Below the pieces are notes generated by a model. That model did not search any database. It was not told where the DNA came from and saw only the letters and a list, made by a program, of their open reading frames with translations. This document shows, piece by piece, positions 7,124-31,585 of a stretch of DNA of 64,000 bases; the stretch's first letter is position 1, and every line of letters begins with the position of its first letter. Source of the stretch: Candidatus Zhuqueibacterota bacterium. Lineage in GTDB: Bacteria > Zhuqueibacterota > Zhuqueibacteria > Oceanimicrobiales > Oceanimicrobiaceae. The stretch is taken from positions 1 through 64,000 of the forward strand of contig JAJDAD010000057.1 in the NCBI GenBank assembly GCA_029262055.1. The letters are read 5' to 3'. The position numbers and the translations under genes were made by a program.

Positions 7124-8524
7124 TCAAAGTCCATACTTGTCGAGCAGGTAAATCAGCGCGGCCAGCGATCCGGTCCCAAGCTCCAACTCGCGCCGGTCCA
7201 CCGCGCCAAAGTGATCGTGTTCGGAGTGGTGAACGTCGAAATAGCGCTGAGAATCCGTGATCAGCCCGATCACCGGGATGCCCTGCGACTTGTTGAGTGG
7301 GTTGATATCGGCACCGCCGCCACCGGCTTCTATATATGAAATCGTGTTCGGGTCAAAGTGTGGCAGCCAGGAACGGATCTTGTCGATGGCAGCTTCTGAG
7401 GCGGTTACCCCGAAGCCGCGGGGCGAGAAGCCGCCGGCATCACTCTCGATGGCCGCAAGATGTTTTTCCTGGTTTTCCAGGGCCAGGGCCGCATATCGCC
7501 GCCCGCCGCGCAAACCGTTCTCCTCATTCATGAACATGACTGCGCGCAAGGTGCGCCTGGGCTTGTAACCGATCCTCTGCAGTGCTCGCAAGGCCCCGAT
7601 GGCGTGCACGCAGCCGGCGCCATCATCATGCGCCCCCTGAGCCAGATCCCAGGAATCGAGATGTCCACCGACGACGATGATTTCATCCGGGTGCTCACTA
7701 CCTCGCAACTCCCCGATTACGTTGTGCGACTTCGCGTCTGGCAACCAGCATCCACTGAGCTCGAGGTGTAGTTTCAGAGGGCCGCGCGCGCGCAGCGCTT
7801 CTGTCAGCTTGTCCGCCGACTGCACGCCGAAGGCGGCGGCAGGAATCCGGTCAATGTCCGGCTTGTAGGACAGCATACCCGTATGTGGCGCATCGTCAAA
7901 AGCCGTGGTCACTGAACGAATCACAACGGCAGCAGCGCCAAACTCTGCCGCCCGCGACGGCCCATCAACCCTCTGGTCGTTGGCACCACCGTAGCCTCGC
8001 CCGGTATGTACCGAGCGTTGGTCAAACGCGCGATTATAGAAAACGATCTTACCGGCAACCCGTTGCTTGCCCAGCGCAGTTAGCTCTTCCAGACCCTGTA
8101 CCTCGACCACTTCGGCGGTTACGCCGCCCTCCGGGGTTGCGACTGAACCACCGATAGCGGTGACCTTCAAGTCGACACGGTTGCCGGAGGGCAGGACAAT
8201 ATGCGCGGTCTCTACTGCGCCGCGGACCCAATGCGGCACCATCACATCTTGCAGGAACACGCGATCGAAGCCGTAGCCGAGCATCACCTCTTTTGTCCAT
8301 TGCACAGCCCTGGCCGCGCCCTCCGATCCGCTCAGACGCGGACCGATTTGGTTCGACAGGTGATCCAGCAGCTTGTAGCTTTCCGCCGACACCAGAACCT
8401 CATCAAAAATTGCTTTGATTATCCTGCTGTCTTCAGCACCGGAGCCTTTCCCATCGTCGGCAGGAAAAACCGCAAGTAAGAACAGGCCCAACATCAGAGT
8501 CGCAAGGGAATATTGAGGCTTCAT
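7124..8524 (-). CDS. Secreted M28 family zinc peptidase
   Basis: A 466-residue protein with an N-terminal signal peptide (TLMLGLFLLAVFPA). It matches M28 aminopeptidases/carboxypeptidase Q-like enzymes, which remove residues from peptides with two zinc ions. A PA-like domain sits near residues 130-265. The catalytic core shows GGHLDSWD (H288, D290), HDDGAG (D300), NEENGLRGG (E334 and E335), SDAGG (D362) and a late HHSEHD that supplies the last histidine ligand. All metal and base residues expected for the family appear intact. It stands alone between two operons, so a scavenging role in the periplasm is inferred. Confidence 0.87.
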   Translation of the reverse strand: MKPQYSLATLMLGLFLLAVFPADDGKGSGAEDSRIIKAIFDEVLVSAESYKLLDHLSNQIGPRLSGSEGAARAVQWTKEVMLGYGFDRVFLQDVMVPHWVRGAVETAHIVLPSGNRVDLKVTAIGGSVATPEGGVTAEVVEVQGLEELTALGKQRVAGKIVFYNRAFDQRSVHTGRGYGGANDQRVDGPSRAAEFGAAAVVIRSVTTAFDDAPHTGMLSYKPDIDRIPAAAFGVQSADKLTEALRARGPLKLHLELSGCWLPDAKSHNVIGELRGSEHPDEIIVVGGHLDSWDLAQGAHDDGAGCVHAIGALRALQRIGYKPRRTLRAVMFMNEENGLRGGRRYAALALENQEKHLAAIESDAGGFSPRGFGVTASEAAIDKIRSWLPHFDPNTISYIEAGGGGADINPLNKSQGIPVIGLITDSQRYFDVHHSEHDHFGAVDRRELELGTGSLAALIYLLDKYGL

Positions 8525-17269: not shown

Positions 17270-17342
17270 GTCCCCTTCGTCTAGTGGCCTAGGACTCAGG
17301 ACTTTCATTCCTGCAACAGGGGTTCGACTCCCCTAGGGGACG
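17270..17342 (+). tRNA. tRNA-Glu (TTC)
   Basis: The acceptor stem GTCCCCT pairs with AGGGGAC, discriminator G. The anticodon arm CAGGA/TCCTG encloses CTTTCAT with anticodon TTC. The T arm has GGTTCGACTCC. It lies 20 bases after tRNA-His and is probably co-transcribed. Its 3' end is repeated at 31168, marking the boundary of the accessory island. Confidence 0.95.
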
Positions 17343-17348
17343 CAAACC
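17329..17348 (+). repeat. Left island boundary: 3' end of tRNA-Glu (attL-like)
   Basis: The 20 bases TCCCCTAGGGGACGCAAACC cover the last part of tRNA-Glu and six bases beyond. The identical sequence recurs at 31168-31187 in the same orientation, 13.8 kb away. In both places it is followed by a near-identical hairpin and T run. tRNA 3' ends are the usual targets of tyrosine-type integrases. No integrase gene remains in the island. Confidence 0.65.
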
Positions 17349-17356
17349 TTTGCAAC

Positions 17357-17393
17357 AGGCAGAACTCCATCATCCGGAGGTTCTGCCTTTTTT
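17357..17393 (+). terminator. Rho-independent terminator after tRNA-Glu
   Basis: AGGCAGAACTCC and GGAGGTTCTGCCT form a strong stem with one bulge, followed by TTTTTT. It ends the tRNA-His/tRNA-Glu transcript. A closely similar copy is at 31197-31233. Confidence 0.8.
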
Positions 17394-17626
17394 GTATTGA
17401 ACGGTGTCGTGTATTTAAACCACAACTTGGGGAAGCCACACTGATCGCAATATTTTGGATTATAGTCCTCCTGACTAATTCTAATTCTTCGGATTAATTT
17501 ACTCTGACTCTCAGTTCTTACTTAGAATCGAGGTCATCCTGAGCGCCCGGCAACAGCCGGCTCAAAAAGTCTAACGTCCGGGAAAAATTGGCGCTTCATT
17601 GAAAGGCTCACCGATCCTCCAAAAAC

Positions 17627-17669
17627 TCAGAGTTTCAGAGACCAGAGGCTTCAGAGATCAGAGGAATGG
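17627..17669 (-). repeat. 43-bp block 3' of VR-A (candidate IMH region)
   Basis: This block is identical, or nearly so, next to all three variable repeats (also 23502-23544 and 27369-27411) and covers the end of each target gene and the bases beyond its stop. In the coding direction it contains two tandem 16-base units, CCTCTGATCTCTGAAG and CCTCTGGTCTCTGAAA. The template repeat lacks this block; there the corresponding flank is different (AAGAGGAGCGT on the plus strand). It therefore has the position and behaviour expected of the element that marks VR as recipient. Confidence 0.55.
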
Positions 17670-20600
17670 GCGAGCGCGACACGAAAACCAATGTAGTTGT
17701 ACCGGTCGAACGGGAGGTTCCTGAAGCGATAGGCGCACCGAACGCCGCTCGGATTAGCGTCGAACGCGCCGCCACGAACAACGCGCACCCCTTCGGAATC
17801 GACCTTCTCACGACCGTCGTCGGGTTCGTACTCGTAGTCCGCAAAACGGCTGCGCGTCCACTCCCAGACATTGCCCAGCATCTCTTCACAACCGTAAGGC
17901 GAACGCCCGTGCGCACAGGTCCCGACTGGGCTGGTAGCGCCGACTTCTGATCGGTAGTAATTTGCCAGATCCGGATTAATTCCATCATCCGCAACCGATT
18001 CCGCCCAGGCATGAATTCGTGACGGGTTGCCATTGTCTCGTTTTGCCCTGGCCTTGGCTGCGGCAGTCGCCAATGTCTGCAAACCGGACGCCACAGCTAT
18101 CTCGGGGATTTGCCGGCCGCCGCGTGCTGCCTTTTCCCACTCAGCCTCGGAAGGCAAACAAACCCGCATACCGTCCGGGAGCCACCCTCGTTCACGCCAG
18201 CGGCCATCCAGCCAATGGCAAAAAGCAATAGCCTCATACCAGGAAACGCCAACCACCGGATGGTTGGGCAAAACAAATGCACCACCAAAGCGCTCCGGAC
18301 CATCAACCCCATTCTTCCTCTGCCAGTCCCAACCGGCCTCGGTCCAGCATTGCTCCGCCTGGTATCCGCCGTCTGCGATGAAAACCGCATATTGGGCATT
18401 GGTCACCGGGAAACGCGCCATATAGAAAAGCGGCAATTCGACCTCATGCTGTGGCAGTTCCCTATCCTGGGCATCACTGTCATACTTCTTGTCGCTGCCC
18501 ATCAGGAAAGCGCCCGCCGGGACGGGGCAGAACTCCATCGCATCAGCGTGATGCACACTGGAGCGTGAGTCGCCAAGTTCGGCAAGCAGCACGCCGGAGC
18601 GCGCTCTCTCTTTTAATGGCAAAACGCCGTGCGCAGCAAGCGCAGCAAGATGCCACTCCTGCAGGCGTTCCAGAATCACCTGGCCGAGCTCCTCGCGTTT
18701 CACACCCACCAGACCGATTTCCAGCAGCGCCTCAGCCGCCATTTGGGCGCGCAACCAGGTGTCGCGCTCTTTGTCGCCGGTTTTCCGGACGTCGCGCGGG
18801 CAAAGCGCATTCACCGATGCCAGCGCCGAACCAAGCAGGTTCTGGCGGCTGGAATAACCGGCAGCCAGCACAAACACTTCGCGCCAGCGGTCGAAATCGT
18901 CACGGACAAGAGCAGCGGCTTTCTCCGCGTAGTCCTGGCGGGTGGCCAGGTGGCACGCGGCCATGAATTCCTGGAAGGTGCGGTGAGGAAACGTATACTC
19001 ATCAGTCTTATGCGAGATCAGCAGTCCCGCCCGTTCATGGATGTAAGCTACGAAGTCCGCGGCCTTGTTGCGGTCGCCGCTCAGATAGGGTGTCAGCCAC
19101 TCCACCAGGCTGCCGCGTTCGACATCCGCGGTCTGCTCCTCTGGTTTTATGCGACTGTGCGCTTTGAAGGCGACTTCAAACAAGCCGGATTCCAGGTCGC
19201 TGCGTTTGAGCCCGGGCACGTTGAGACGCACCAGGACGCCTTCGTCTTTGCCCAACCTGCCTTCCCAGCGTTCGAATAGCAGGTCGATGGCGTCTGCGTA
19301 GAGCTCGGTACGGTCCTGTGGCAGTTTGCCCTTGAAGGTGTGCAGTTGCGTGGTGACGGTGAGCAGGAGCGGCCGTTCCGCCAGTTCCTGCAGATCATGC
19401 CGTTCCAGGGCCGTCTTGAGTTCCGCAGCCTTCTCCTCCGCTTCGTGCGCGCTGAGGTAGCTGGCAGCCAACCGGCCATACCAGTTGTCGACAAAAGTGA
19501 CCATTTGTTCCTGTGAAAAGGGTGCCAGCGTCACTTCTTGAAAGCCTTTCAGTTTCCAGGGCTGGCCAATGTAAGCATACGGCCGGCAGGTGACCACGTA
19601 GCGGTGTTTCTTGTACCGCGTAGCGAGATCCTGTGTTGCATCCACCACAGCCTGGCGCTGCGCCTTCGGCACCTCATCCAGTCCATCCAGCATGACGAGA
19701 AACGGGATTTCCTCGTCCATGATGGCGGCGGTCAGTTCGTCGGCGAACCTCTGCAGCTGCCATTCTGTTAGCAACGCTCTCAGGTAGCCAAGTATTTGTA
19801 CCGCTGAACCCTGGCCCTTGTCGTCAACGAATTCGGCAAATCGCCGCAGCTCCAGCCGTACCGGCATCAAAGTCCCGTGCTGCCATGGTTCGATCTGTTT
19901 CAGCCACGCCTCCGGCTGGTTTGCCAGGCACGCCTGGGCCAGCACATAGGTGAGGTGCTTCACAAAAGTAGATTTGCCGGAGCCCGGATCGCCCATAATC
20001 AGCAGTAGGCGCTCCCTGTCGAGCATCTCCTGCGCCGGCACACGCTCCTTCTCGGAAAGTTCACGCATAAATTTGCGCAGCTCGGCCTCTTCCCGCACAC
20101 GGATCTCCGTTGTATCGAGGTTGGTGTAGATATCAGCGAGGCCGAACTGGACGCTGGACTCGGAGCGGGCGTACTCGATGTTGACCTTGGTCCACGGCAA
20201 CAGGTTGGCGTCCCGGGCGACTTCGCGCAGGTAACGCTCGCGCAGCCCCTCGTCTTTCACAGTTGGGCCAGCCGTGTTCTGCACAAAAACCTGAATGAGC
20301 TGCTCGATGTTCTGGTATTTGCCGCCGGCGCCAACGGCAATGGCGCCTTCCTGGGCGATGGCGCCGGCGCCGTGCAACTCAGCGTTAAGGCGGCGAACGA
20401 GGCTGCCTGGCTGCAACTGCGGGCGTTCTTGCATCAGAGCTATCATCTCTTTGTGATACTGTACGTCCTCAAATCTTGCTAGCATGGGCCCGCAGTTAGT
20501 ATCCGCAAGCAACCCATTCTTGACCAGTTGCACGTACTGCTGCAATGAGCGCGCGTGGTCCGGATAGTCCGCTCTTAGTTGCGCAATGTCGAGCCCGTTG

Positions 20601-20845
20601 GCATCCAGCAGTCCCGCCAGAACACGATTCTGGACCTCCTGCTGTTCAAGCAATTCGGACAGGTGATCGTCTGAAACGGCCGCGAGGGCCGCCTTGTGCA
20701 CTTTGCGAAAGGCAGAAAGGCGTTTCTGGTCATCGCCGTCTTTGACCAGCTCTTTCAGCGCATCCGAAAGATACTCCTGACCCGCGTTCCTGAACACATC
20801 AACCATCGCTTTGACGGCCGCGCCAAACAGAGCTTCAACGAACAT
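17651..20845 (-). CDS. DGR target protein A: NACHT NTPase with variable FGE/C-lectin domain
   Basis: A 1,064-residue protein. The ATG at 20843-20845 follows GGGAGGATA. The N-terminal ~165 residues are helical and of unknown function. A glycine-rich linker (GAGAIAQEGAIAVGAGG) leads to a NACHT/STAND NTPase with Walker A GDPGSGKST at about residues 285-293 and Walker B FLVMLDGLDEVP at about 382-393. Helical STAND repeats follow. The last ~290 residues are an FGE-sulfatase/C-type-lectin fold (CPVPAGAFLMGSD, FPVTNAQYAVF, EEMLGNVWEWTRS) ending in the variable repeat (VRVVRGGAFDANPSG). STAND proteins act as ligand-triggered switches that oligomerise, so the variable C-terminus is inferred to be the sensor and the N-terminus the effector. 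It is separated from the retroelement core by a transposase and gene debris. Confidence 0.88.
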   Translation of the reverse strand: MFVEALFGAAVKAMVDVFRNAGQEYLSDALKELVKDGDDQKRLSAFRKVHKAALAAVSDDHLSELLEQQEVQNRVLAGLLDANGLDIAQLRADYPDHARSLQQYVQLVKNGLLADTNCGPMLARFEDVQYHKEMIALMQERPQLQPGSLVRRLNAELHGAGAIAQEGAIAVGAGGKYQNIEQLIQVFVQNTAGPTVKDEGLRERYLREVARDANLLPWTKVNIEYARSESSVQFGLADIYTNLDTTEIRVREEAELRKFMRELSEKERVPAQEMLDRERLLLIMGDPGSGKSTFVKHLTYVLAQACLANQPEAWLKQIEPWQHGTLMPVRLELRRFAEFVDDKGQGSAVQILGYLRALLTEWQLQRFADELTAAIMDEEIPFLVMLDGLDEVPKAQRQAVVDATQDLATRYKKHRYVVTCRPYAYIGQPWKLKGFQEVTLAPFSQEQMVTFVDNWYGRLAASYLSAHEAEEKAAELKTALERHDLQELAERPLLLTVTTQLHTFKGKLPQDRTELYADAIDLLFERWEGRLGKDEGVLVRLNVPGLKRSDLESGLFEVAFKAHSRIKPEEQTADVERGSLVEWLTPYLSGDRNKAADFVAYIHERAGLLISHKTDEYTFPHRTFQEFMAACHLATRQDYAEKAAALVRDDFDRWREVFVLAAGYSSRQNLLGSALASVNALCPRDVRKTGDKERDTWLRAQMAAEALLEIGLVGVKREELGQVILERLQEWHLAALAAHGVLPLKERARSGVLLAELGDSRSSVHHADAMEFCPVPAGAFLMGSDKKYDSDAQDRELPQHEVELPLFYMARFPVTNAQYAVFIADGGYQAEQCWTEAGWDWQRKNGVDGPERFGGAFVLPNHPVVGVSWYEAIAFCHWLDGRWRERGWLPDGMRVCLPSEAEWEKAARGGRQIPEIAVASGLQTLATAAAKARAKRDNGNPSRIHAWAESVADDGINPDLANYYRSEVGATSPVGTCAHGRSPYGCEEMLGNVWEWTRSRFADYEYEPDDGREKVDSEGVRVVRGGAFDANPSGVRCAYRFRNLPFDRYNYIGFRVALAHSSDL
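17670..17787 (-). other. DGR variable repeat VR-A
   Basis: 118 bases aligning without gaps to the template repeat at 22973-23090. I count 15 substitutions, each at a position where the template coding strand has A (T on the plus strand). The encoded stretch replaces template Asn codons, for example giving D, A, N, S, G, F, N, L, F, D, Y, N and Y at the thirteen variable positions. The invariant scaffold (PxxVRCAYR, then IGFRVAL) is unchanged. Confidence 0.9.
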
Positions 20846-20849
20846 TTTT

Positions 20850-21104
20850 TTATCCTCCCAATGGTTGCCAGCCACCGAGCAAGCGGCCGATCTCGACGAG
20901 CATCTTGGCGGCGTGCTCGTACTGGCCAGCGTTCAGCCAGTCAAGTCCATCATCATGATGCGCAAACGCAGCACCCGTGTTGTACAGCGGGTCAATACAA
21001 ATGCACTTGATCTTCCCGGCAAAATCCTGTTTGAGCTCCTTCAACGCCAGCAGCTTGTCGCCATAAATCAGCATGTTTTTGCTGCTGGCGTCGCCGTAGG
21101 TCAC
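20850..21104 (-). pseudogene. Debris: avd 3' fragment fused to a methyltransferase fragment
   Basis: Two unrelated remnants read in one frame. The part at about 20873-20941 encodes DWLNAGQYEHAAKMLVEIG and is nearly identical at DNA level (about 65 of 69 bases) to the end of the intact avd gene at 23153-23221. The part at about 20945-21100 encodes NMLIYGDKLLALKEL and CICIDPLYNTG, the start of an adenine-specific DNA methyltransferase of the type III Mod kind, where DPPYNTG would be expected. Neither half is functional. The avd piece indicates that target gene A once followed a complete avd, so part of the DGR was duplicated and then truncated. Confidence 0.7.
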
Positions 21105-21137
21105 AACCTTGCGAAGGTTCCAAACCTTCGCAAGGTT
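21105..21137. repeat. REP-like palindrome, left side of the RAYT element
   Basis: A perfect 15-base inverted repeat with a 3-base loop: AACCTTGCGAAGGTT, CCA, AACCTTCGCAAGGTT. A second copy lies at 21729-21759 on the other side of the transposase gene. Hairpins of this sort are the DNA substrates of IS200-like and REP-associated tyrosine transposases. Confidence 0.75.
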
Positions 21138-21148
21138 AAGGTCGACGA

Positions 21149-21717
21149 TCAATCCAAATAATATCGTTCCAGTTCTTCAGCAAGTTCTTTCCCAACATCA
21201 TGGTCATGCACAAACTCGATGTATTGTTCGAATGTTGAAAAGTAAGCCATCACAAAATCACGATCAACCAAAGTGCCGCCACGAGCGCCAAGCCATTCCG
21301 CATAGTTAGAGAACCGCCAGTTTTGAGGGCGTTTCGCTAAACCGGCTTTAACGGGATTCAAGTGAATGTATCTGGCAAGATGTATCAAATGCTCATCCCT
21401 GTCCACCAGCACGTGCTTCGCCCTGCCTTGAAACAATGTGCCCGACCTCCCCACCTGTTTGTTGACTGCCTGAACATAGCCGTTAAACAGGTCTTTGAGC
21501 CAGTCTGAAATGGGACGTTCAGTCATCTGGCGAACAAGAAAATGATAATGATTCGGCATCAAACAGTAAGCGAAAATGCCTATTCCGTAATTCCTGTACG
21601 TTGCCTTCACCTTCTTCAAGAGATACAGATAGTTCCCTTCGTTAAAAAAAATGCGCTCCCTGTTGCAGCCGCGGTTGTAAAGTGGTAAACGTGATTTTGT
21701 AGCAACGGTTCGTTCAT
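21149..21717 (-). pseudogene. IS200-like Y1 (RAYT) transposase, frameshifted near the 5' end
   Basis: The protein has the HUH/Y1 transposase features MPNHYHFLVR (His-hydrophobic-His) and the later helix GYVQAVNKQVGRSGTLFQGR with the catalytic Tyr, followed by HLNPVKAG. The natural start appears to be ATG 21715-21717 (MNEPLLQNHVYHF). That frame stops after about 33 residues. Adding one T near 21679 (CACTTT to CACTTTT) would restore the expected HFYNRGCNRERIFF and join it to the downstream frame. The observed sequence therefore lacks one base. A shorter 156-residue protein could still start at an internal TTG, but it would lack the first strand of the fold. Confidence 0.7.
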
Positions 21718-21728
21718 AGCGTTACCTT

Positions 21729-21759
21729 AACCTTGCGAAGGTTTGGAACCTTCGCAAGG
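21729..21759. repeat. REP-like palindrome, right side of the RAYT element
   Basis: AACCTTGCGAAGGTT, TGG, AACCTTCGCAAGG: the same inverted repeat as at 21105-21137 with the loop changed and the final bases lost. Together the two copies bracket the transposase gene. Confidence 0.75.
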
Positions 21760-21778
21760 ATGGTATGCCAATATGCAG

Positions 21779-22807
21779 TTATGCTCTTGTGAGAATCGCC
21801 TTGCGCAGCCCAACAGTGTTACCGTAGCGTGCGTGGTTCACCCACCCCCGGACACTTGCTGAGATGTTCTCTAGCGGAATAGTGCGATCAAGATGGCCGC
21901 GCTGCATTGCGCGGTACTTGCGCCGGAAATATAGCCCTTTGCTGCGCTTTAGCCGGCGACTTTCCGGGTACACCACAAAGCCGAGAAAAGCGACCCCTTC
22001 AGCGACCGGTCTTGGATGTGCATTTTTATGTATTGTCAGGCGCATGGCAAGCAGTTTTTCTATCAGATTGTTCTTCCACTGCCAGAGAAGCCGCTTATCA
22101 TCCGCAAACAACATAAAATCGTCCACATATCTGAGATAGGCCGGGCATCGTAGCTCTCGTTTCACGAAGTGGTCAAAGGTATTCAAATAGACATTCGCCC
22201 AGAACTGGCTGGTTAGATTGCCAATGGGTAGACCGCGTGGCCTCTCGATAGCGAACAGGTCATCCCCAGGAAAGTAAACCATGTCATATTCTTCTGCAAG
22301 CACATCACGACCACTGCAGAGGATCTGATCGACAAGCCATCTCACCCGGACGTCGTGGATCTTGCTTGTCAAAGCAACGCGCAAAACGCCATGGTCCAGG
22401 CTCGGGAAGAACTGACGAACATCGCATTGCAGAACATATCGATAGCGTCTCGCGTATTGCTGACACCGGTCGAGCGCACGGTGCGTTCCCTTGCCGATAC
22501 GGTTTGCGTAAGAATCCCGGATGAAACTGCGCTCAAACTCTGGCTCGATGATGTTGCAGAGTGCATGATGTACCACCCGATCCCGAAATGGGGCAGCGCT
22601 GATGAGGCGGCGCTTGGGTTCATGAATGTGGAAACTGCAATACCCACCTGGCGTATAGGTAAAGGACCGCAAGTCCTGCCGCAGCCGCAACAGGTTATCC
22701 TCCAGTCTGTGCTCGAATGCTGCCACGCTGGGCTTGCCACGTTTACCCTTACTGGCGCTGTGGAACGCAGCGAACAGATTGCCGAACGATGTCAGTCGCA
22801 GATACAT
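21779..22807 (-). CDS. DGR reverse transcriptase
   Basis: A 342-residue group II intron-like reverse transcriptase of the DGR clade. The catalytic motifs are present: first Asp in LQCDVRQFFPSLD (D129), RGLPIGNLTSQFWANVYL (about 191-208), and YVDDF (227-231), the catalytic aspartates. The SQ after LPIGNLT, where most RTs have QGxxxSP, is typical of DGR enzymes. The C-terminal thumb region (RRLKRSKGLYFRRKY) is short and there is no endonuclease or maturase domain. GGAG lies about 12 bases before the ATG at 22805-22807; an in-frame TTG is six bases upstream. It copies the TR transcript into mutagenised cDNA together with Avd. The TR lies 165 bases upstream in the same direction. Confidence 0.93.
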   Translation of the reverse strand: MYLRLTSFGNLFAAFHSASKGKRGKPSVAAFEHRLEDNLLRLRQDLRSFTYTPGGYCSFHIHEPKRRLISAAPFRDRVVHHALCNIIEPEFERSFIRDSYANRIGKGTHRALDRCQQYARRYRYVLQCDVRQFFPSLDHGVLRVALTSKIHDVRVRWLVDQILCSGRDVLAEEYDMVYFPGDDLFAIERPRGLPIGNLTSQFWANVYLNTFDHFVKRELRCPAYLRYVDDFMLFADDKRLLWQWKNNLIEKLLAMRLTIHKNAHPRPVAEGVAFLGFVVYPESRRLKRSKGLYFRRKYRAMQRGHLDRTIPLENISASVRGWVNHARYGNTVGLRKAILTRA

Positions 22808-22972
22808 AGACAATAGTTACTCCGCCCAAAGACCGCCGCGGCCCAGTGGGCGGAGCCGTTGTTATTCGCCCGATTCCGAGACTTTCGAAATGCGGCCGGG
22901 AACAGGCCCAACCATTCCTCACTTCGGCCCGGAAGCCACCGCCGCCGGGCAGTTCCAGCTAAAGAGGAGCGT

Positions 22973-23090
22973 GCGAGCGCGACACGAAAACCAATGTTGT
23001 TGTTCCGGTTGTTCGGGTTGTTCCTGTTGCGATAGGCGCACCGAACGTTGTTCGGATTATTGTTGAACGCGCCGCCACGAACAACGCGCA
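22973..23090 (-). other. DGR template repeat (TR)
   Basis: A 118-base sequence between avd and the RT gene. On the minus strand it would read VRVVRGGAFNNNPNNVRC and then YRNRNNPNNRNNNIGF, with 13 Asn codons (11 AAC, 2 AAT) exactly where the three variable repeats differ. AAY codons can mutate at both adenines to encode up to 15 residues without creating a stop, the known design of DGR templates. The flank on the RT side differs from the VR flanks, as expected for a donor. The frame continues as a chance open frame after the TR and is not a gene. Confidence 0.93.
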
Positions 23091-23131
23091 CCCTCGGGCC
23101 GTCCCCCGGGTTATTCCCGCTCTGTTATCCT

Positions 23132-23482
23132 TCATTTTGAAGCGGTGGCTTTCTGCCAGCCACCAAGCAAGCGGCCGATCTCGACGACCATCTTGGCGGC
23201 GTGCTCGTACTGGCCGTCGTTCAGCCAACCCCAGCCCAGCGCCAACCGCAAATACACACGCACGCGTGCCAGGGCCTCATCGGCAAGTGCCAGTCTCAAA
23301 AGTCTTTCATCGCTGCGCCGCAGGTTCGCTTCCTCCAGCCGCTCCCGCAGATCGAACGCGGCGTCCAGGAGCCTGCGGGTAAACGTATGCCGTTGGGCGC
23401 GCGGGAAGTTATTGGTGGCCGGCAGCAGCCAGCTCAGGAAGTCGAACGTCCGCGTAAAAATGGGCATTTCCACATTAGCCAT
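23132..23482 (-). CDS. avd: DGR accessory variability determinant (Avd)
   Basis: A 116-residue, all-helical, basic protein (about four helices) directly upstream of the TR, the usual place of avd. Avd forms a pentameric barrel that binds the RT and the template RNA and is required for cDNA synthesis. Visible stretches are FPRAQRHTFTRRLLDAAF, LRERLEEANLRRSDERLL and YEHAAKMVVEIGRLLGGW, which fit the family. GGAGG precedes the ATG at 23480-23482. The gap to target gene B is 50 bases. The 3' end is duplicated as a fragment at 20873-20941. Confidence 0.87.
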   Translation of the reverse strand: MANVEMPIFTRTFDFLSWLLPATNNFPRAQRHTFTRRLLDAAFDLRERLEEANLRRSDERLLRLALADEALARVRVYLRLALGWGWLNDGQYEHAAKMVVEIGRLLGGWQKATASK

Positions 23483-23501: not shown

Positions 23502-23544
23502 TCAGAGTTTCAGAGACCAGAGGCTTCAGAGATCAGAGGAATGG
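23502..23544 (-). repeat. 43-bp block 3' of VR-B (candidate IMH region)
   Basis: Same block as at 17627-17669, with the two tandem 16-base units. In gene B the frameshift upstream makes the protein stop inside this block at 23533 instead of at 23526. Confidence 0.55.
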
Positions 23545-26500
23545 GCGAGCGCGACACGAAAACCAATGTTGAGGTCCCGGCTGCCTCGGGTAGTACCTGT
23601 AGCGATAGGCGCACCGAACGTAGTTCGGATTACTGCCGAACGCGCCGCCACGAACAACGCGCGTATCTTCGGAATCGAGCTGCTCACGACCATCCCCAGG
23701 ATCGTACTCGTAGTCTGAATAAAGGCTGCGCGTCCACTCCCAGACATTGCCCGACATCTCTTCACAACCGCATGCCGACCGGCCTTGCGTAAAGCAGCCC
23801 ACAGCACTTGTTGTGTTGATGTTCGTGTCACGGTAGTTGGCCAGATTGGAATTAATCTCCTGACCGCGCCCCCACGGAAACTCGCGCTTATCTCGCACAT
23901 TTTCAACTGTAGTAAATGCCGGCTTTGCTGGCAATTCGGCCAACGAAGCAACCACCGGCTCCTCGGGTTTCTTGAGTCCACCGCGGGCCGCCTTTTCCCA
24001 CTCTGCCTCCGAAGGCAGGTGAACCTGCAATCCCTTGCTCTTTAGTCCCATCCTGACGGTCAGCCAACGGACAAAGGCCAGCGCCTCGTACCAGGAAACG
24101 CCAACGCACGGATGGTTGTCCAGATTGAACGGAGGGCCAAAGTCCACTGCTTGAATGCGCGGCTTGTCATCCCGCCATCCCTTGAAGCCGTTTTTTGACC
24201 ACAGACCTGCTTTCTTCGCCTCGACCCAGTATTCCTTTGTCGAATAGCCACCGCCCTGGACGAACGCTCTGAACTGTGCATTGGTCACAGGATACCTGGA
24301 AATCCAATAATCCTCGGCGAGGCTTTTGTTGCAGTGCAAGGCCTCATCCTCACCCATCCAGAATTCACCGCCGGGTACAAGGCAGAAGGACATCTTCTCT
24401 AAAGTGGTCACTTCCTCACGCGGGTCGCCGATTCGGGCCAGGTTGACACCCGCTGCTGCCCGTTCGATGGCCGGGAACTCGTTGCAGCGCATGACCTCCT
24501 TCAACCCATCTTTCACTTCGGCTACGCGTGCGATCTTGGCTGCACTGAGCTTACTCAGATCGGCAGTTTCCACTAGCGCCTGGCCCGCCAGGTGCACATC
24601 CCAGGCGACGTCGGGATGCATCTGCTGTTCGCCCTGCTCCGGCCAAAGTTCGTCGATCAGGTTCCAGATGGTAGAGCCCGAGCCACGGTACGCCTTTGCG
24701 GCGGCGAGCAGTGCCACTTCCCGCCAGCGATTCGGCTCGGCACGGTACTTCCCAACCAACTCCTTTGGGTACTCCGGGCCTGTCAGATGACACGCGGCAA
24801 GGTACTCCTGAAAGGTCCGGTGCGGGAACGAATAGACACCGACGCCGCGCGAAACCAGTAGGCCGGCGCGTTCGCTCAGATATTTGATAAGCTGGCCAGG
24901 TTTGGCGTCGGGATTTGCGGCCAGATCCATCAGGCTGTCGACCAGATCTTTCTCTGCAATGTCCGCTGTGCCGTGCAGCTCTTTTTGACAGGCATGCACC
25001 ATAAACGCTTGCTCATTCAGGCGTTCGCGTATTTTGTCGCGATCGGTGTTGAGCCATTCGGCCAGGCTCGGCTCCTTCACGTCGGTGGTGCCGTCTTCCT
25101 TCTGCTCCAGCTTGGCGTTCTCCCACCAGTCCAGCAAGAGCTCCACCGCATCGGAGTAGAGTACTTCACGCTTATCCGGCAATGACCCGCCACGCCATGC
25201 ATGCAGGCTGGCCATGAGGGTGAGCAAAAGCGGCCGCTCCGCGAGCCCCTTGAGACGCTCGCTCTTGCTGATGGTCTCTTTTAAGAGGGTTGCTCTACCC
25301 CTGGCAGTCTCTGCGCTCATGCCGCGTGTCTGTGCGCTCATATCATACCATCGCTGCACAAATGCATCGATCTGAGCTTGATCGAAGGGCGCCAGCATGG
25401 TTGAAGCGAAATCGTCGAGTCTCCACTCCTGGGCCTGGTAAGCGTAGGTTCTGCTGGTCACGACGATGCGGCACTTGCCAAATATCGAGGCAAAATGCTC
25501 CACACACTGCTTGATCTGCACCCGCAGCCGGCCTCCTTCGGGTACTTCATCGAGGCCGTCCAGCAGGATAATCCCACCGTTGCCCAGCAATTCCTGCTTC
25601 AGGAGCGGTGCGTACTCAGCCAGGCAGGCTGATGAGAGGTCATCGGCGATAAACTGCCAAAGGTGGTCAGCAGTTGCTCTTTTGCCCGAAGATGGCAGAC
25701 CTTTTGTGGTAAAGTCTTTGAGGATGACCCGCACCGGCTGCAGGCCGGCGTGGTCCCATTTCTGACGTTTTGGTTCATCCTCGCCAGGGTTGGGTAATGG
25801 GCGGGTCAGCAAGTCGAGGTTGGTGCTGCTGTTGAGCAGTTCCCCGGCCATACACATTGCCACGAAATTGACGAATGTGCTCTTGCCGCTACCCGGGTCA
25901 CCGAGCAGCACCAGATGCTTGTGCGCATTCAGTTGTTCAAGGGCAGAGAGGTGCTTTTCCTGGCGCTCTTGCATTCGGACATCTGGCATGCCTTCACTCG
26001 ATTCCGGCGTTTTCGTACGCAGAGCCGTGTAAACCGCGTCGAGGTTCAATTGGGCATGGGCCTCGCCTGTCGCCGCCTTTGGATCGATGCCGGATAGCGA
26101 GAGTTTCTGGACCTGGCTGTGGACATGTCTGAGATACGCCTCCTTCATTGAGGCGACAGCGGCTTTCTTCGTACCATCCTCCACCTGATTATAAATGTTG
26201 ACCGTGGCACCTTCGGTGACAACAATCGCATGCCGCTCTGCCAGGATGGCCCGCTTGCCCTGGGCTGCCTTACCCGAGCCGGTTATGGTAGCCTCGTAAG
26301 ATTCAGAAGGCGCAGATTTCTCGAGTTCGGGCAGGATGACCTCGGCAAACCATTCCCGATCAGCGACAGGCAATGCACTCTGCGCCTGTGACAGCGCCTC
26401 CAGCTCGCGAAGCATCGCCTCCAGGTAAGCCATGATCGCGTTATCTCCTGCTATTGCCTTTTCGAGCTCATTGGCGACTTGAGCCTCGTCTTGCCAGTCT

Positions 26501-26724
26501 TTGATCTTTGCTGCGATTAGACTTGTGCCGGCACCTGCCGCCACCGTGCCAAGTGCAATGAGGGCCTGCACGTTGCCCTGCTGGAACGCTTCTATGACCG
26601 GCCACAGTGCGGAGGCCGACACAAAGGCAAATACAGACTTCGTGCCCGTTGCCCGCATGCGGTCGCGCCAGCCCGGGATGCGCTTGCCGAATTCTGTCTT
26701 CCAGGTATCAAGATCAAAAGTCAT
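23533..26724 (-). CDS. DGR target protein B: NACHT NTPase with variable FGE domain, shifted tail
   Basis: A 1,063-residue protein from ATG 26722-26724 (GAAGGG upstream). The first ~140 residues (MTFDLDTWKTEFGKRIPGWR) match the stand-alone protein encoded just upstream and include hydrophobic stretches near 31-72. A variant linker GSGKAAQGKRAIL, a conserved SLSGIDPKAATGEAHAQLNL block and a NACHT domain follow (Walker A GDPGSGKST at 275-283, Walker B IILLDGLDEVPEGG). The C-terminal FGE fold has SFCLVPGGEFWMGE and EEMSGNVWEWTRS. Within the variable repeat one extra base changes the frame, so the protein ends YYPRQPGPQHWFSCRARPFL instead of the expected IGFRVALAHSSDL. This is either a defective product of retrohoming or a sequencing error. 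It is the target nearest to avd. Confidence 0.87.
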   Translation of the reverse strand: MTFDLDTWKTEFGKRIPGWRDRMRATGTKSVFAFVSASALWPVIEAFQQGNVQALIALGTVAAGAGTSLIAAKIKDWQDEAQVANELEKAIAGDNAIMAYLEAMLRELEALSQAQSALPVADREWFAEVILPELEKSAPSESYEATITGSGKAAQGKRAILAERHAIVVTEGATVNIYNQVEDGTKKAAVASMKEAYLRHVHSQVQKLSLSGIDPKAATGEAHAQLNLDAVYTALRTKTPESSEGMPDVRMQERQEKHLSALEQLNAHKHLVLLGDPGSGKSTFVNFVAMCMAGELLNSSTNLDLLTRPLPNPGEDEPKRQKWDHAGLQPVRVILKDFTTKGLPSSGKRATADHLWQFIADDLSSACLAEYAPLLKQELLGNGGIILLDGLDEVPEGGRLRVQIKQCVEHFASIFGKCRIVVTSRTYAYQAQEWRLDDFASTMLAPFDQAQIDAFVQRWYDMSAQTRGMSAETARGRATLLKETISKSERLKGLAERPLLLTLMASLHAWRGGSLPDKREVLYSDAVELLLDWWENAKLEQKEDGTTDVKEPSLAEWLNTDRDKIRERLNEQAFMVHACQKELHGTADIAEKDLVDSLMDLAANPDAKPGQLIKYLSERAGLLVSRGVGVYSFPHRTFQEYLAACHLTGPEYPKELVGKYRAEPNRWREVALLAAAKAYRGSGSTIWNLIDELWPEQGEQQMHPDVAWDVHLAGQALVETADLSKLSAAKIARVAEVKDGLKEVMRCNEFPAIERAAAGVNLARIGDPREEVTTLEKMSFCLVPGGEFWMGEDEALHCNKSLAEDYWISRYPVTNAQFRAFVQGGGYSTKEYWVEAKKAGLWSKNGFKGWRDDKPRIQAVDFGPPFNLDNHPCVGVSWYEALAFVRWLTVRMGLKSKGLQVHLPSEAEWEKAARGGLKKPEEPVVASLAELPAKPAFTTVENVRDKREFPWGRGQEINSNLANYRDTNINTTSAVGCFTQGRSACGCEEMSGNVWEWTRSLYSDYEYDPGDGREQLDSEDTRVVRGGAFGSNPNYVRCAYRYRYYPRQPGPQHWFSCRARPFL
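23545..23663 (-). other. DGR variable repeat VR-B with a 1-nt insertion
   Basis: 119 bases that align to the 118-base TR with one inserted C (plus strand, within 23581-23587). I count 12 substitutions, all at template adenines. The insertion lies at the codons for the N-N-R part of the template and shifts the frame for the last residues. The alternative frame still encodes the normal ending NIGFRVALAHSSDL and its stop at 23526. Confidence 0.87.
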
Positions 26725-26743: not shown

Positions 26744-27307
26744 TTATTCATCTTCGGATTTATTTCCGCGGCCAATCTTGATACTGGAGCCGCCCGTAGC
26801 AACCACGCCTCCAGCACCCACTGCGATGGCTCCTTTGCCCTGGGCAATGGCACCTGAGCCATGTACGACGGCACTGAATGACTGTGTACTGCCGAGTTTT
26901 TGCAGCTCTTTTTCAAGGGTTTTGTCGAACCAGAGATGTTCGTCCTCAGGAAGCGTCGCACGGGCGACTTTGAGCGCCTGCAATTCTTTGAGCACTTTGT
27001 CCAGTTCATCACGAAGCTCAGTGTCCGTTTCTATTGCCTTATCCAACTGGGCGGACGCATCTTCTTCAGATGTCCACTGACCGATCTTCTTTTGCAGGAG
27101 TTCCGCGCCTTTCGCCCCAACCAGACTGGTCAGTGCGCCGCCGGCGCCAGCCCAGTCACCGGACCGTACCGCCTCGACCACCGGCCAGAGCGCGGTCGCC
27201 GAAACAAATCCGTAGATGGACTTGCGCCCGAGCTGTTTCATGCGGTCACGCCACGCCGCAAACCGGCCATCCAGGTCATTCTTCCAGGAATTGATATCAA
27301 AAGCCAT
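26744..27307 (-). CDS. Stand-alone paralogue of the N-terminal domain of target B
   Basis: A 187-residue protein starting at ATG 27305-27307, with TAAGGAGG upstream. It begins MAFDINSWKNDLDGRFAAWR, closely parallel to protein B, and shares its hydrophobic segment (IYGFVSATALWPVVEA) and helical region. It ends in the linker GSGAIAQGKGAIAVGAGG and then stops, with no NTPase or sensor. It could be a free effector or adaptor that works with the NACHT proteins, or a left-over of domain duplication. The hydrophobic stretch could insert in a membrane, but that is a guess. It is 19 bases upstream of gene B, so the two are probably co-transcribed. Confidence 0.75.
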   Translation of the reverse strand: MAFDINSWKNDLDGRFAAWRDRMKQLGRKSIYGFVSATALWPVVEAVRSGDWAGAGGALTSLVGAKGAELLQKKIGQWTSEEDASAQLDKAIETDTELRDELDKVLKELQALKVARATLPEDEHLWFDKTLEKELQKLGSTQSFSAVVHGSGAIAQGKGAIAVGAGGVVATGGSSIKIGRGNKSEDE

Positions 27308-27368
27308 AAGATGAGCCTCCTTAGAATGTACGACTGCATTCACTCACTAGCGAACCCCCACCCCCAAA

Positions 27369-27411
27369 TCAGAGTTTCAGAGACCAGAGGCTTCAGAGAT
27401 CAGAGGAATGG
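27369..27411 (-). repeat. 43-bp block 3' of VR-C (candidate IMH region)
   Basis: Third copy of the block with two tandem 16-base units found next to VR-A and VR-B. Confidence 0.55.
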
Positions 27412-30400
27412 GCGAGCGCGACACGAAAACCAATGTTGTAGCTCCGGGCGTTCGGGTTGAACCTGTAGCGATAGGCGCACCGAACGAGGTTCGGATTACT
27501 GAAGAACGCGCCGCCACGAACAACGCGCAGTGTCTGAGCATCGACTGCAATACCCTCCCGGCCATCATCGGATTCATAAGGATATCCAAAGGAACACTTG
27601 AAGATATCTTCGCCCCATTGGCTGCGCGTCCACTCCCAGACGTTGCCCAGCATCTCTTCACAACCGTAAGGCGAACGCCCACCGCAAAAACAGCCGACCG
27701 CACTGGTCGAGTTGATATTGGTCTCACCGTAATTTGCCAGGTTCGGGTTTGCTGTATCCACGCCTTTTTCCTGCCCCCAGGGGTGGATCTGTCCCGGGTT
27801 GGGATGCGCTACGAGCAGGCAATCAACCGGCTGCGGCAGGTTCGTCAATTCCCCATAAACAGGATGTTCCGGATATTGCGAGCCGCCGCGCGCCGCTTTC
27901 TCCCACTGCGCTTCAGAAGGCAGAACGGCTCGCAATCGTGGCCGTTCGAGATGGCACGCATCATTCAGCCACCTGACAAAGGCCAGCGCCTCGTACCAGG
28001 TGATGCCGACGACGGGATGGTTGGGCAACCGCAAGCTGTCACCGAAATCTGCCGGCCGGTCGCGCCAGTCATCATCATTCCCGGCCTTGACTCGACCGCC
28101 TTTCCAAACTTTCGCTTTCTTCGCCTCATGCCAGTATTCTTTCCTGCTGTAGCCTTCAGCCTGGCAAAACAACTCGAACTGAGCATTCGTGACCGGGAAC
28201 CGGCTGATCCAGTACCCGGGCAATGCAGGCTCATGTTGAGGCATCTCGTCATTATAGGCCTTTGGATCCCGCGACTTATCGCTTCCCATGACAAATTTCC
28301 CGGCCGGCACATAACAGAAGGCCATCCGCTCGATGTTTTTGACTTCATCGCGCGGGTCGCCCAACCGGGCCAGGTTGGCGCCCGCTGCCGCACGTTCGAT
28401 GGCCGGGAATTCGTTGCAGCGTATGACCTGTACCAGCCTGTCGGCCACATGGCTAACCTTTGCTTTCTTAGCATCCGTCAGGTTGCTGAGGTCCGCGATC
28501 TCGGTCAAGGCTTGCGCAGCCAGATGAACATCCCAGGCCCTCTCAGGCGTCATCTTTTTTTGCGGGGGTTTGACATGACTGAGTTCATCCACAAGTTGCC
28601 AGATGGTGGACGCAGCACCGCCGTAGGCTTTGGCGCAAGCCAGCAGGGCCGCCTCACGCCAGCGGTTCGGCTCCTGGCGATATAGCTCGACCAGCTTGTC
28701 CGGATAATCGTACTCCGTCAGTTGACAGGCGGCCAGATATTCCTGAAAAGTCCGGTGTGGGAAGGCGTAGACCCCTTTGCCGCGCTGCACCAGGAGTCCG
28801 GCCCGCGTGCTGAGATACTCGACCAGCCTGCCTGGTTTGACCTCCGGGTTCTTACTCATGTTCAGCATTCCCGCCACCAGTTTTTCTTCAGGAATATCAG
28901 CGGTTCCAACCAGATCCGGCTGGGAGGCATGTGCTTCGAACGCAAGCTTGTTGAGCATTTCCCGGACTTTCCCACGGTCAACTTTCAGCCACTCAGCCAG
29001 ACTGGGCTGGAGAATTTTGAAACCGCCGGAAGCGTCTCGCACGGCTTTTGGCTTTTCCCACAAATCCAGCAAGACATCCACCGTGTCGCTGTAAAGCTGT
29101 TCGCGCTTTTCAGGCAGGCTGCCGCCACGCCAGGCGTGCAGGCTCGCCATGAGTGTCAGGAGCAGCGGCCGCTCAGCCAGGGCCTGCAGCCGGTCGCTTT
29201 CCTGAATGGCGTGCTTGAGCAATTTTGCACGCCCGCGCGCATCGTCCGGATCCATGCCGCGTTTCACCGCGGCCTCATCGTACCAGTGCTCGACAAACAC
29301 AGCGATCTGGGCTGGTGTAAAAGGCGCCAAAACGGTTTCCGGAAACTCATACAATCGCCAATCCTGTTTTTGATAAGCGTAGGTCCGGCTGGTCACCAGA
29401 ATGCGGCACAGCGGAAAACCGGAGGCAAAGTCTGTCACCGCATCTTTTATCTGCACCCGGCGATGCTCGGCCTCTGGGACCTCATCCAGGCCATCCAGCA
29501 ACAAAATTCCGCCTTTCTCACGCAGCTCCCGCTGCAGAAAAGGAGCGTATTTCTCCAGGGTGGCCGACTGCAACTCAGATTCGATGAACTGCCACAGGTG
29601 CTTTGCCGTCCCCTCTTCCGGGGCGTCCGGCAGACCGCGTGCGGCGAAATCGCGTAATATGACCCGGACCGGCAGCAACCGCCCGTGATCCCAGGGTTGC
29701 GGCCTGGCCTTCTCATCATCTCCTTCCGCCGGTAAAGGTGCGGTCAGCAGGGAAAGATCAATGTCTTTGTTCTGCAACAGCGCTCCAGACAAACAGAGCA
29801 TGACGAAATTCACAAACGTGCTCTTGCCGCTGCCGGGATCTCCAAGCAGCACCAGACGCGAATGCTGGTTCAACTGCTCTACGGCTGACTGGCGGCGTGA
29901 TTCTCTCGCGGGCGATTTGCCTTGCAGCGCCTGCTCATGTGCTTCAGACGTCTGGGTAAGCAAGGCTGTGTAAACGCCGGCAAGATTGAGCCGGGCCTCC
30001 ACTTCACTGCTTGCTGCTTTCGGGTCGATGCCGGCGAGCGATAGCTGTCTGGTTGAATCGAAAAGGCGGTTGAGATAGGCCTCCCGCAAAGAAGCTACAT
30101 TTGCGGTTTCTGCACGTTGCGATTGCACGGTCTGGCTTTCGACATAGGTGCCGGTGTGAATAACCTTTGACTCGATTAGAACGCCCTTTTCCCCCACCGC
30201 TTTAGCGCCCTCGCCCTGGGCGATGGCGCCACTTCCCCGCAGCACGGCGCCGGTTGGCGGGAGCGACGTCGCTTTGTCCGCGATCGCAACGCTCACTTCC
30301 CTGGCGAGTTCGTCAGCCGTGCGAAAGAAACCTACGATGTAGTCGCGGCTCAGCTCCGCCCGCAGCGCTTCAATCCGTTCAGGGTCGGCATCCATCTGCT

Positions 30401-30722
30401 TTCGCGGCCAGGGTGCTTCTTCGTGCAGCAAAAACAGCAGACAGGTCTTCTTGCATCTTACCGCCTCGCGAAACTCCAGCTCGGTGATCGAGCACTTTTG
30501 CTCCGGCGGGATATGACCGTAACGCCAGGCGAAGATACCAACGTAGATGTCGCACTCTGCCACATCCGCCAGGCACTTGTCGACCGGGCGCTGGTCGGTC
30601 GCCACATAGTCTTCCATGGCGATAACGTCATGACGCATTTTGCGCAAAGCGCGGTAAACTGCTTCCCGTGCTGCGGCGAGGTCTTGATAAGTCGAGGAGA
30701 TATAGATTCTGGCCATACTCAT
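27393..30722 (-). CDS. DGR target protein C: DUF4062-NACHT-variable FGE domain
   Basis: A 1,109-residue protein. The N-terminus is a DUF4062 domain (RIYISSTYQDLAAAREAVYR, DIYVGIFAWRYGHIP, residues 4 to ~100), a Rossmann-like, TIR-related module common at the N-terminus of STAND proteins. Then come the linker GSGAIAQGEGAKAVGEKG (163-180), the shared SLAGIDPKAASSEVEARLNL block (228-247), and NACHT with Walker A GDPGSGKST (294-302) and Walker B ILLLDGLDEVPE. The C-terminal FGE fold (FCYVPAGKFVMGSDKS, EEMLGNVWEWTRS) ends in an intact variable repeat and the usual HSSDL. ATGAGTATG leaves two starts six bases apart. It is the first gene of the island when read on the minus strand and heads the probable operon C, paralogue, B, avd, TR, RT. 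Confidence 0.9.
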   Translation of the reverse strand: MSMARIYISSTYQDLAAAREAVYRALRKMRHDVIAMEDYVATDQRPVDKCLADVAECDIYVGIFAWRYGHIPPEQKCSITELEFREAVRCKKTCLLFLLHEEAPWPRKQMDADPERIEALRAELSRDYIVGFFRTADELAREVSVAIADKATSLPPTGAVLRGSGAIAQGEGAKAVGEKGVLIESKVIHTGTYVESQTVQSQRAETANVASLREAYLNRLFDSTRQLSLAGIDPKAASSEVEARLNLAGVYTALLTQTSEAHEQALQGKSPARESRRQSAVEQLNQHSRLVLLGDPGSGKSTFVNFVMLCLSGALLQNKDIDLSLLTAPLPAEGDDEKARPQPWDHGRLLPVRVILRDFAARGLPDAPEEGTAKHLWQFIESELQSATLEKYAPFLQRELREKGGILLLDGLDEVPEAEHRRVQIKDAVTDFASGFPLCRILVTSRTYAYQKQDWRLYEFPETVLAPFTPAQIAVFVEHWYDEAAVKRGMDPDDARGRAKLLKHAIQESDRLQALAERPLLLTLMASLHAWRGGSLPEKREQLYSDTVDVLLDLWEKPKAVRDASGGFKILQPSLAEWLKVDRGKVREMLNKLAFEAHASQPDLVGTADIPEEKLVAGMLNMSKNPEVKPGRLVEYLSTRAGLLVQRGKGVYAFPHRTFQEYLAACQLTEYDYPDKLVELYRQEPNRWREAALLACAKAYGGAASTIWQLVDELSHVKPPQKKMTPERAWDVHLAAQALTEIADLSNLTDAKKAKVSHVADRLVQVIRCNEFPAIERAAAGANLARLGDPRDEVKNIERMAFCYVPAGKFVMGSDKSRDPKAYNDEMPQHEPALPGYWISRFPVTNAQFELFCQAEGYSRKEYWHEAKKAKVWKGGRVKAGNDDDWRDRPADFGDSLRLPNHPVVGITWYEALAFVRWLNDACHLERPRLRAVLPSEAQWEKAARGGSQYPEHPVYGELTNLPQPVDCLLVAHPNPGQIHPWGQEKGVDTANPNLANYGETNINSTSAVGCFCGGRSPYGCEEMLGNVWEWTRSQWGEDIFKCSFGYPYESDDGREGIAVDAQTLRVVRGGAFFSNPNLVRCAYRYRFNPNARSYNIGFRVALAHSSDL
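27412..27529 (-). other. DGR variable repeat VR-C
   Basis: 118 bases that align to the TR without gaps. I count 12 substitutions, all at template adenines. The thirteen variable positions read F, S, N, N, L, Y, F, N, N, A, S, Y, N. The frame is intact. Confidence 0.9.
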
Positions 30723-31167: not shown

Positions 31168-31187
31168 TCCCCTAGGGGACGCAAACC
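31168..31187 (+). repeat. Right island boundary: copy of the tRNA-Glu 3' end (attR-like)
   Basis: Identical to 17329-17348 (TCCCCTAGGGGACGCAAACC). The rest of the tRNA is absent, so this is not a second tRNA gene. The similarity continues through the terminator copy, giving a quasi-repeat of about 66 bases. Confidence 0.65.
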
Positions 31188-31196
31188 CATGTAAAA

Positions 31197-31233
31197 AGGC
31201 AGAACTCCATCAAGCGGAGGCTCTGCCTTTTTT
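31197..31233 (+). terminator. Copy of the tRNA-Glu terminator
   Basis: AGGCAGAACTCC and GGAGGCTCTGCCT followed by TTTTTT, nearly identical to the hairpin at 17357-17393. Here no gene lies just upstream, so its presence is best explained by integration or duplication at the tRNA locus. Confidence 0.7.
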
Positions 31234-31585
31234 GCGTCAAGAGATATTGCATTCAGCGGTGATGTTAGGATGACCGAATTCGACGCGGTTGAAGAGGGTT
31301 TTGGTGAATTTTTGTTGCCCGACCATTGTACTTGGACTTGACAGTATTCGCAAGTCCGCGTTTATATGCCTCTCCCATTTCGCTTGAATGTGAGGAAACC
31401 ATTTTGTAGAATTAACAGTGTCGGGGCGTGCAAGTTGTTGTGGCCGATACATGCATCGGCTATTGTCTCGAGTCCATACCCTGCGATGATTCGTAGAATG
31501 GGAAGTAATGGAAAGAAGAGGTGTCATTGCTATTTGGAAGAAATATTCGGGCTATGTAGACTCACCTTGATTTGAGTGACTTGGT
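31234..31585. other. Intergenic stretch, nothing recognised
   Basis: About 350 bases between the island boundary and the response regulator gene. Open frames here do not resemble known proteins and have no good start signals. The promoter of the regulator must lie here. Confidence 0.4.

Follow-up and report, generated by a model that had tools for sequence, protein, structure and literature searches.

A cellular diversity-generating retroelement with three NACHT target genes and a spaced CTCTG array behind its variable repeats

We analysed a DNA stretch of 64,000 nucleotides from a Candidatus Zhuqueibacterota bacterium (GenBank assembly GCA_029262055.1, contig JAJDAD010000057.1, positions 1 to 64,000), hereafter the window, which carries a cellular diversity-generating retroelement (DGR). 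In the explanation that best covers all observations together, and in which we have high confidence, this DGR rewrites three sensor genes by mutagenic retrohoming, one of its three variable repeats (VRs) has slipped by one nucleotide, and an array of short CTCTG units serves as a target mark. A preliminary description of this DNA had claimed 39 substitutions between the template repeat (TR) and the VRs, all at template adenines, and base-by-base alignment on the minus strand, which is the coding strand, bore this out. The repeats and genes that carry the argument are the following.

22973..23090, minus strand: TR with 13 AAY codons; its homology to the VRs spans 22963-23093
17670..17787, minus strand: VR1, 15 A-substitutions, in frame (alignment)
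23545..23663, minus strand: VR2, 12 A-substitutions and a 1-nt insertion causing a frameshift (alignment)
27412..27529, minus strand: VR3, 12 A-substitutions, in frame (alignment)
21779..22813, minus strand: DGR reverse transcriptase (RT), 344 aa, with YVDD and TSQ motifs (Pfam RVT_1; 8ub7 RT, E 1.9e-42)
23132..23482, minus strand: Avd accessory protein, 116 aa (Pfam bAvd; NCBIfam DivGenRetAVD above cut-off; PDB 4dwl)
17651..20875, minus strand: target 1, 1074 aa, N-terminal region, NACHT and FGE/C-type-lectin-like (C-lec) domains (Pfam)
about 23533..26724, minus strand: target 2, NACHT and FGE/C-lec domains, last ~17 residues frameshifted; the frame is open to 27012, with a likely ATG at 26724
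27393..30722, minus strand: target 3, 1109 aa, DUF4062, NACHT and FGE/C-lec domains (Pfam)

The coding strand of the TR encodes RVVRGGAFNNNPNNVRCAYRNRNNPNNRNNNIGFRVAL, and its 13 AAY (Asn) codons had been counted correctly. When the pairwise alignments were tallied by template base, 39 of the 39 substitutions (15 in VR1, 12 in VR2 and 12 in VR3) fell at A, and none at C, G or T. Since A makes up 29 of the 118 template bases, the chance of this outcome is approximately (29/118)^39, about 10^-24. The changes were A>T 7, A>G 6 and A>C 2 in VR1, A>G 6, A>T 5 and A>C 1 in VR2, and A>T 7, A>G 3 and A>C 2 in VR3, so that in the pooled VRs A>T (19) and A>G (15) exceed A>C (5). The same bias was found in 53 gap-free VRs of related loci (A>T 389, A>G 368, A>C 110), where 1077 of the 1145 TR/VR differences, counted over 66 VRs, lie at A. 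Three adenines of the TR that stand outside AAY codons (in TAT, AGG and ATT) are unaltered in all VRs of the window. The theoretical repertoire proposed earlier, 15^13 (about 2x10^15), is arithmetically right but only a ceiling, as the data for the DGR of Bordetella phage BPP-1 give fewer residues per codon: AAC codons yield just eight residues at 1% or more in the rebuilt system (PMC12875486).

Outside the adenines the VRs had been described as unchanged. This holds for substitutions at the 89 non-A sites of the TR (0/267 across the three VRs), except that the outermost base of VR2 (23663), at the repeat edge, shows T>C and that VR2 contains one inserted base. VR2 had been delimited as 23545-23663 with the right number of substitutions, but this interval holds 119 bases instead of 118, and the extra base had gone unmentioned. 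The repeat runs about 10 bp past 22973 with three differences that are fixed in all VRs (TR ...GCACGCTCCTCT, VR ...GCCCATTCCTCT); these shared differences past the stated repeat end, GCACGC in the TR and GCCCAT in all three VRs, show the edge of copying. Judged from the sequence, these fixed edge differences are of the type of the initiation of mutagenic homing site and its TR counterpart (IMH/IMH*) and not products of mutagenesis. Among the surveyed VRs, the TR and VR first differ after the GFR codons by A>C in 32 of 52, as expected of IMH*/IMH.

The DNA around the VRs is far less conserved than the VRs themselves. Over the 120 bp upstream, the target pairs are identical at 59/126, 66/130 and 99/120 positions (47-83%), and over the 60 bp past the CTCTG array at 29-37 of about 63. 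As the VRs match the TR at non-A sites while the upstream DNA differs, they have been rewritten from the TR after the target genes diverged, and this, with a recognisable RT and Avd, supports adenine-specific mutagenic retrohoming. The targets are indeed paralogues, as they would be if the repeats were ordinary diverged gene duplicates that arose without reverse transcription, but 39 of 39 changes at A of one strand, beside a DGR RT and Avd, refute that explanation, to which we give practically no weight. That retrohoming is "recent or ongoing", as had been suggested, is a fair reading of the identity of VRs and TR at non-A sites.

The proteins of the cassette agree with this assignment. The closest solved relative of the window RT is the 8ub7 RT, the structure of which was solved together with an Avd, and its TSQ motif contains the SQ dipeptide known as a mark of DGR RTs (PMC3521204). 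All three targets combine a NACHT/STAND domain with a C-terminal C-type-lectin-like FGE domain bearing the VR; the FGE-sulfatase match reaches the ends of targets 1 and 3, which places the VRs at the 3' ends of the genes. As STAND/NACHT proteins with a variable lectin-like C-terminus, the target products are likely diversified sensors, most likely of a defence or cell-death system. Pfam recognised no N-terminal effector domain in targets 1 and 2 and a DUF4062 in target 3, and PADLOC called no firm defence system for the targets. A linker-like motif, G(S/A)GAIAQGxGAxAVG, occurs before or instead of the NACHT domain in targets 1 and 3 and in a 199-aa open reading frame (ORF) between targets 3 and 2, and is degenerate in target 2.

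VR2 exceeds the TR by one base: on the coding strand CCCGAACAACCGG has become CCCGAGGCAGCCGG, with the extra base at approximately 23584-23585. Target 2 is open up to the insertion, after which PRQPGPQHWFSCRARPFL replaces the ...NIGFRVALAHSSDL end and the conserved IGFRVAL end is lost. Because of this frameshift its FGE match covers the 255-position profile only as far as 244, while the matches of targets 1 and 3, whose VRs are in frame, extend to 254. Indels occur in five of the 66 VRs surveyed at the loci of RT relatives (VR2 of the window, +1; L051, -1; L093, -1; L052, +4; L054, +3); four of the five shift the frame and all five lie inside the A-rich segment, while the 100 codons upstream of the VR are free of stops in 56 of the 56 VRs with enough sequence. 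In Anabaena sp. 90, a VR (L129, 5877-6000) of the complete plasmid pANA02 carries a 1-nt deletion that frameshifts an annotated FGE-family gene, and its sister VR is intact. L201, which lies close to the end of its contig, also shows an apparent frameshift at the GFR codons. For AAC repeats, indels whose length is a multiple of three have been reported, and transient slippage was proposed to explain G misincorporation (PMC12875486); the single-base slips fit this slippage picture. The literature searched contained no mention of natural VRs with a frameshift.

VR2 would thus have arisen by retrohoming in which the register was off by 1 nt, probably through slippage, so that the receptor is out of frame; if the intact TR were copied into it again, the frame could be restored. 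Alternatively, the insertion might be an error of sequencing or assembly, introduced where the DNA is hypervariable, and all three receptors would be intact in the cell. VRs are presumably heterogeneous in populations and hard to assemble, and the sequence comes from a single assembly; but no long homopolymer lies at the insertion, VR2 is otherwise a clean copy of the TR, and 1-nt VR indels occur in other assemblies too, including the complete Anabaena plasmid. We consider such an error unlikely.

Directly behind each VR, outside the homology to the TR, lies a block of 43 bp that is present in 3 copies in the genome and does not occur behind the TR.

17627..17669, minus strand: post-VR1 array, 43 bp, five CTCTG units with spacers of 2-4-2-3
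23502..23544, minus strand: post-VR2 array, identical 43 bp
27369..27411, minus strand: post-VR3 array, identical 43 bp

The three arrays are identical at 43 of 43 positions, and the DNA on both flanks has diverged. The pattern YTCTG-N2-YTCTG-N3/4-YTCTG-N2-YTCTG follows VRs and never TRs. At least two TCTG were found behind 42 of 64 surveyed VRs versus 0 of 57 TRs; self-match behind VRs has peaks at lags of 7-8, 15-16 and 23, whereas behind TRs it shows none; and the 99% shuffle threshold was passed by 36 of 61 post-VR versus 0 of 61 post-TR regions. The dominant spacers are 2-4-2 and 2-3-2 (16/20). Many other VRs are followed by more divergent arrays: divergent lineages keep the period of 7-8 nt with other units, CCCTTTA-like in cyanobacteria and AATCTG in two phages. 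A GC hairpin, a feature known from a subset of DGRs, was found behind 26 of the 61 surveyed VRs, and array and hairpin together behind 21 of 61. Within 90 nt behind the VRs of the window no GC stem reached 6 bp, and hence no such hairpin or cruciform was found; inverted repeats were absent behind VR2 and VR3 and limited behind VR1 to a 6-bp AT-rich one and a 6-nt palindrome, and the post-VR DNA folded no better than shuffles. Pairing of the array with the DGR RNA was also considered, and was rejected as inspection by eye found no CAGAG between TR and RT gene.

The array might have no part in retrohoming: it could be a cassette of stops, or untranslated 3' DNA that hitch-hikes with the C-lec module. 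The TGA of CTCTGA does end the targets, in unit 1 for the frameshifted VR2 and in unit 2 for VR1 and VR3, and all three frames are closed in 12 of 61 post-VR regions, compared with 9% of shuffles. However, many units read CTCTGG or CTCTGT and carry no stop, the units vary by lineage (CTCTG, TTCTG, CCCTTTA, AATCTG) while the period of 7-8 nt is kept, and complete identity of three copies between diverged flanks is unexpected for neutral 3' DNA. We consider this alternative unlikely, and a role of the array in target recognition is preferred.

Within the loci from which the pattern had been read, the four-unit form occurred at VR ends in 17 of 17 cases and the three-unit form in 25 of 25, with none elsewhere in 1.28 Mb of strand; genomes were then scanned with the pattern alone, and the counts of these blind scans cover the hits that were fetched, a subset of the hits listed. 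The scan of the host's class covered 63 genomes, and every 2-(3/4)-2 hit fetched from them lay behind an FGE domain, in an RGG...GFR frame with variable residues between. They include VR-like targets with arrays in the near-complete genomes G002 (L163, L164) and G057 (L173-L175), in which no RT relative was found at E 1e-20; these genes are either orphan targets or served by a different RT. The Avd-like hits of G002, G007 and G057 were inspected for a neighbouring RT, and none was present. In genome G030, three array sites lie on contigs other than those with its RT hits. A second scan took in 396 genomes from the same class as G064 (Levilinea); pattern hits were present in 73 of them, and a reversed control pattern occurred only in a handful of genomes. 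The 33 hits with enough upstream DNA from this second scan and from three more loci of the host's class all stood behind FGE-type VRs, 31 by automatic score and two (L201 and L212) by eye.

Three other interpretations of the array were set aside. It is not a plain microsatellite, as the 2-2-2 repeats of genome G044 are not at VRs, and the spacing therefore matters. Nor is it a phage feature: the pattern gave 4 hits in the IMG/VR database, none of them behind a VR. Looser arrays do stand behind the VRs of phages BalMu-1 and FP_Lagaffe. The TAACTGA heptamers of Beggiatoaceae (PMC4679880) lie mostly upstream of start codons, with no retroelement mentioned.

Several points weigh against the overall explanation. 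Reverse transcription and homing by the window RT are steps that we infer from sequence. The position and specificity of the array are observed, and its function we infer. Neither the array test nor the hairpin test was passed by 20 of the 61 surveyed VRs, and some VRs, that of BPP-1 included, have no recognisable array. Finally, the insertion in VR2 could stem from assembly, and the other frameshifted cases are mostly on contigs of metagenome-assembled genomes.

Read along the minus strand, the cassette consists of target 3, 199-aa ORF, target 2, avd, TR, RT gene, RAYT-like transposase and target 1. The two genes of this row not listed above are:

26744..27343, minus strand: 199-aa ORF between targets 3 and 2, without a Pfam family; its start resembles that of target 2 by eye
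21149-21619, minus strand in the gene order: RAYT-like (Y1_Tnp) transposase between RT gene and target 1

On either side of the transposase stands a palindromic sequence of 39 bp, the two copies (21104-21142 and 21724-21762) being inverted relative to each other. The insertion of the transposase between RT gene and target 1, together with the frameshift in VR2, would suit a relic, a DGR that diversified its targets formerly and is now inactive, VR2 having decayed. Intact RT, Avd, TR, VR1 and VR3, VRs free of internal non-A substitutions and arrays that are 43/43 identical make such a relic quite improbable compared with continued retrohoming. A 74-bp piece of the 3' end of avd (23154-23227) recurs with 94.6% identity at 20866-20939, beside the start of target 1, and may be a trace of an earlier duplication of the cassette.

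The edges of the DGR region show the following features.

17270..17343, plus strand: tRNA-Glu gene at the left edge, the only tRNA-Glu gene at either edge
17329..17394, plus strand: left direct-repeat copy (3' end of tRNA-Glu and terminator)
31168..31234, plus strand: right direct-repeat copy, 88% over 67 bp, first 20 bp exact

No tRNA gene was found at the right repeat, and relatives keep a tRNA-His/tRNA-Glu pair. As the 3' end of tRNA-Glu is repeated at both edges with only one tRNA gene, the region looks like a tRNA-integrated island of approximately 13.8 kb; neither an integrase nor any further large ORF was found between the repeats. The genome contains three DGR-type RTs (contigs C67, C2 and C87). 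On C2 as on C87 the locus comprises one TR and one VR; 16/16 and 17/18 of the differences lie at A, the RTs are 49% and 44% identical to the window RT, and the targets are NACHT/FGE-like. Contig C86 carries a TR (8079-8214) and three VRs (6446, 7490 and 9096) in FGE genes, with 17/18, 21/23 and 21/22 differences at A. Since there was no RT hit on this contig, the set is probably served in trans or a remnant.

Taken together, the TR between avd and the RT gene would be transcribed, an RT-Avd complex would copy the TR RNA with misincorporation at adenines, and the cDNA would replace the 3' end of any of the three target genes. The array stands just past the 3' junction at which the cDNA is integrated, in the place taken by the hairpin in BPP-1 (PMC3240598, PMC12875486), and is most likely a target-recognition element: a cis element that would mark the VR as recipient, replacing a hairpin of the BPP-1 type or working with it. 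Its role could be to hold the DNA open, or to serve as a binding site for a host factor or for the RT-Avd complex. The solved RT-Avd complex has five Avd chains per RT. A bolder proposal, which we offer tentatively and regard as possible rather than probable, is that the spaced array and its lineage variants form an undescribed cis target-site element of cellular DGRs that replaces or assists the hairpin, is read by RT-Avd (possibly with each subunit of the Avd pentamer reading one unit) and finds remote VRs without a search for TR, RT or homology, and that single-base slips in A-rich segments switch receptors off reversibly.

A DGR with NACHT-CLec targets is of an already described kind (PMC10907252, PMC7159879). 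The post-VR array is apparently undescribed: no description was found in the literature searched, which did not cover Wu et al. 2018 and which names IMH and hairpin as target-site elements. How a VR is distinguished as recipient from the TR as donor has been worked out only for BPP-1, through IMH and hairpin. An array found behind most surveyed VRs in several phyla, and never behind TRs, offers a candidate for target recognition in cellular DGRs that can be mutated. It is also a short DNA pattern by which diversified receptor genes can be located throughout a genome, even where no RT is near. Where a frameshifted VR stands beside an intact TR, the slippage rate of DGR RTs could be measured, and one could ask whether retrohoming mends its own failures.

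Among known systems, the DGR of phage BPP-1 (mtd, avd, TR, brt) has the same parts in the same order (target, avd, TR, RT) and the same adenine-specific transfer; its RT is 32% identical to that of the window, whose Avd and RT both match solved DGR proteins. It differs in that the window DGR is cellular and has three NACHT targets instead of a phage tail protein, and in that BPP-1 has a hairpin and no array (PMC3240598), whereas the VRs of the window have the CTCTG array and no GC hairpin. The STAND NTPase DGRs of multicellular bacteria (RT clade 5D; Thiohalocapsa PB-PSB1, Dore et al. 2024, PMC10907252) share targets with NACHT and C-terminal CLec domains, several targets per cassette, several DGRs per genome and loci that need activity in trans. 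The window has three targets, one of them with DUF4062. That study mentions no hairpin or cruciform and describes tandem repeats only as MITE-like. The cyanobacterial vWA-MoxR DGRs (Kaur et al. 2020, PMC7159879; plasmids of Nostoc, Fischerella and Acaryochloris) differ from the window in their target architecture, with peptidase, MoxR and FGE neighbours, and in the unit of the array, but their RTs are 45-47% identical to the window RT, their targets are of the FGE type, and their VRs too are followed by a pyrimidine-rich array with a period of approximately 7-8 nt (CCCTTTA...).
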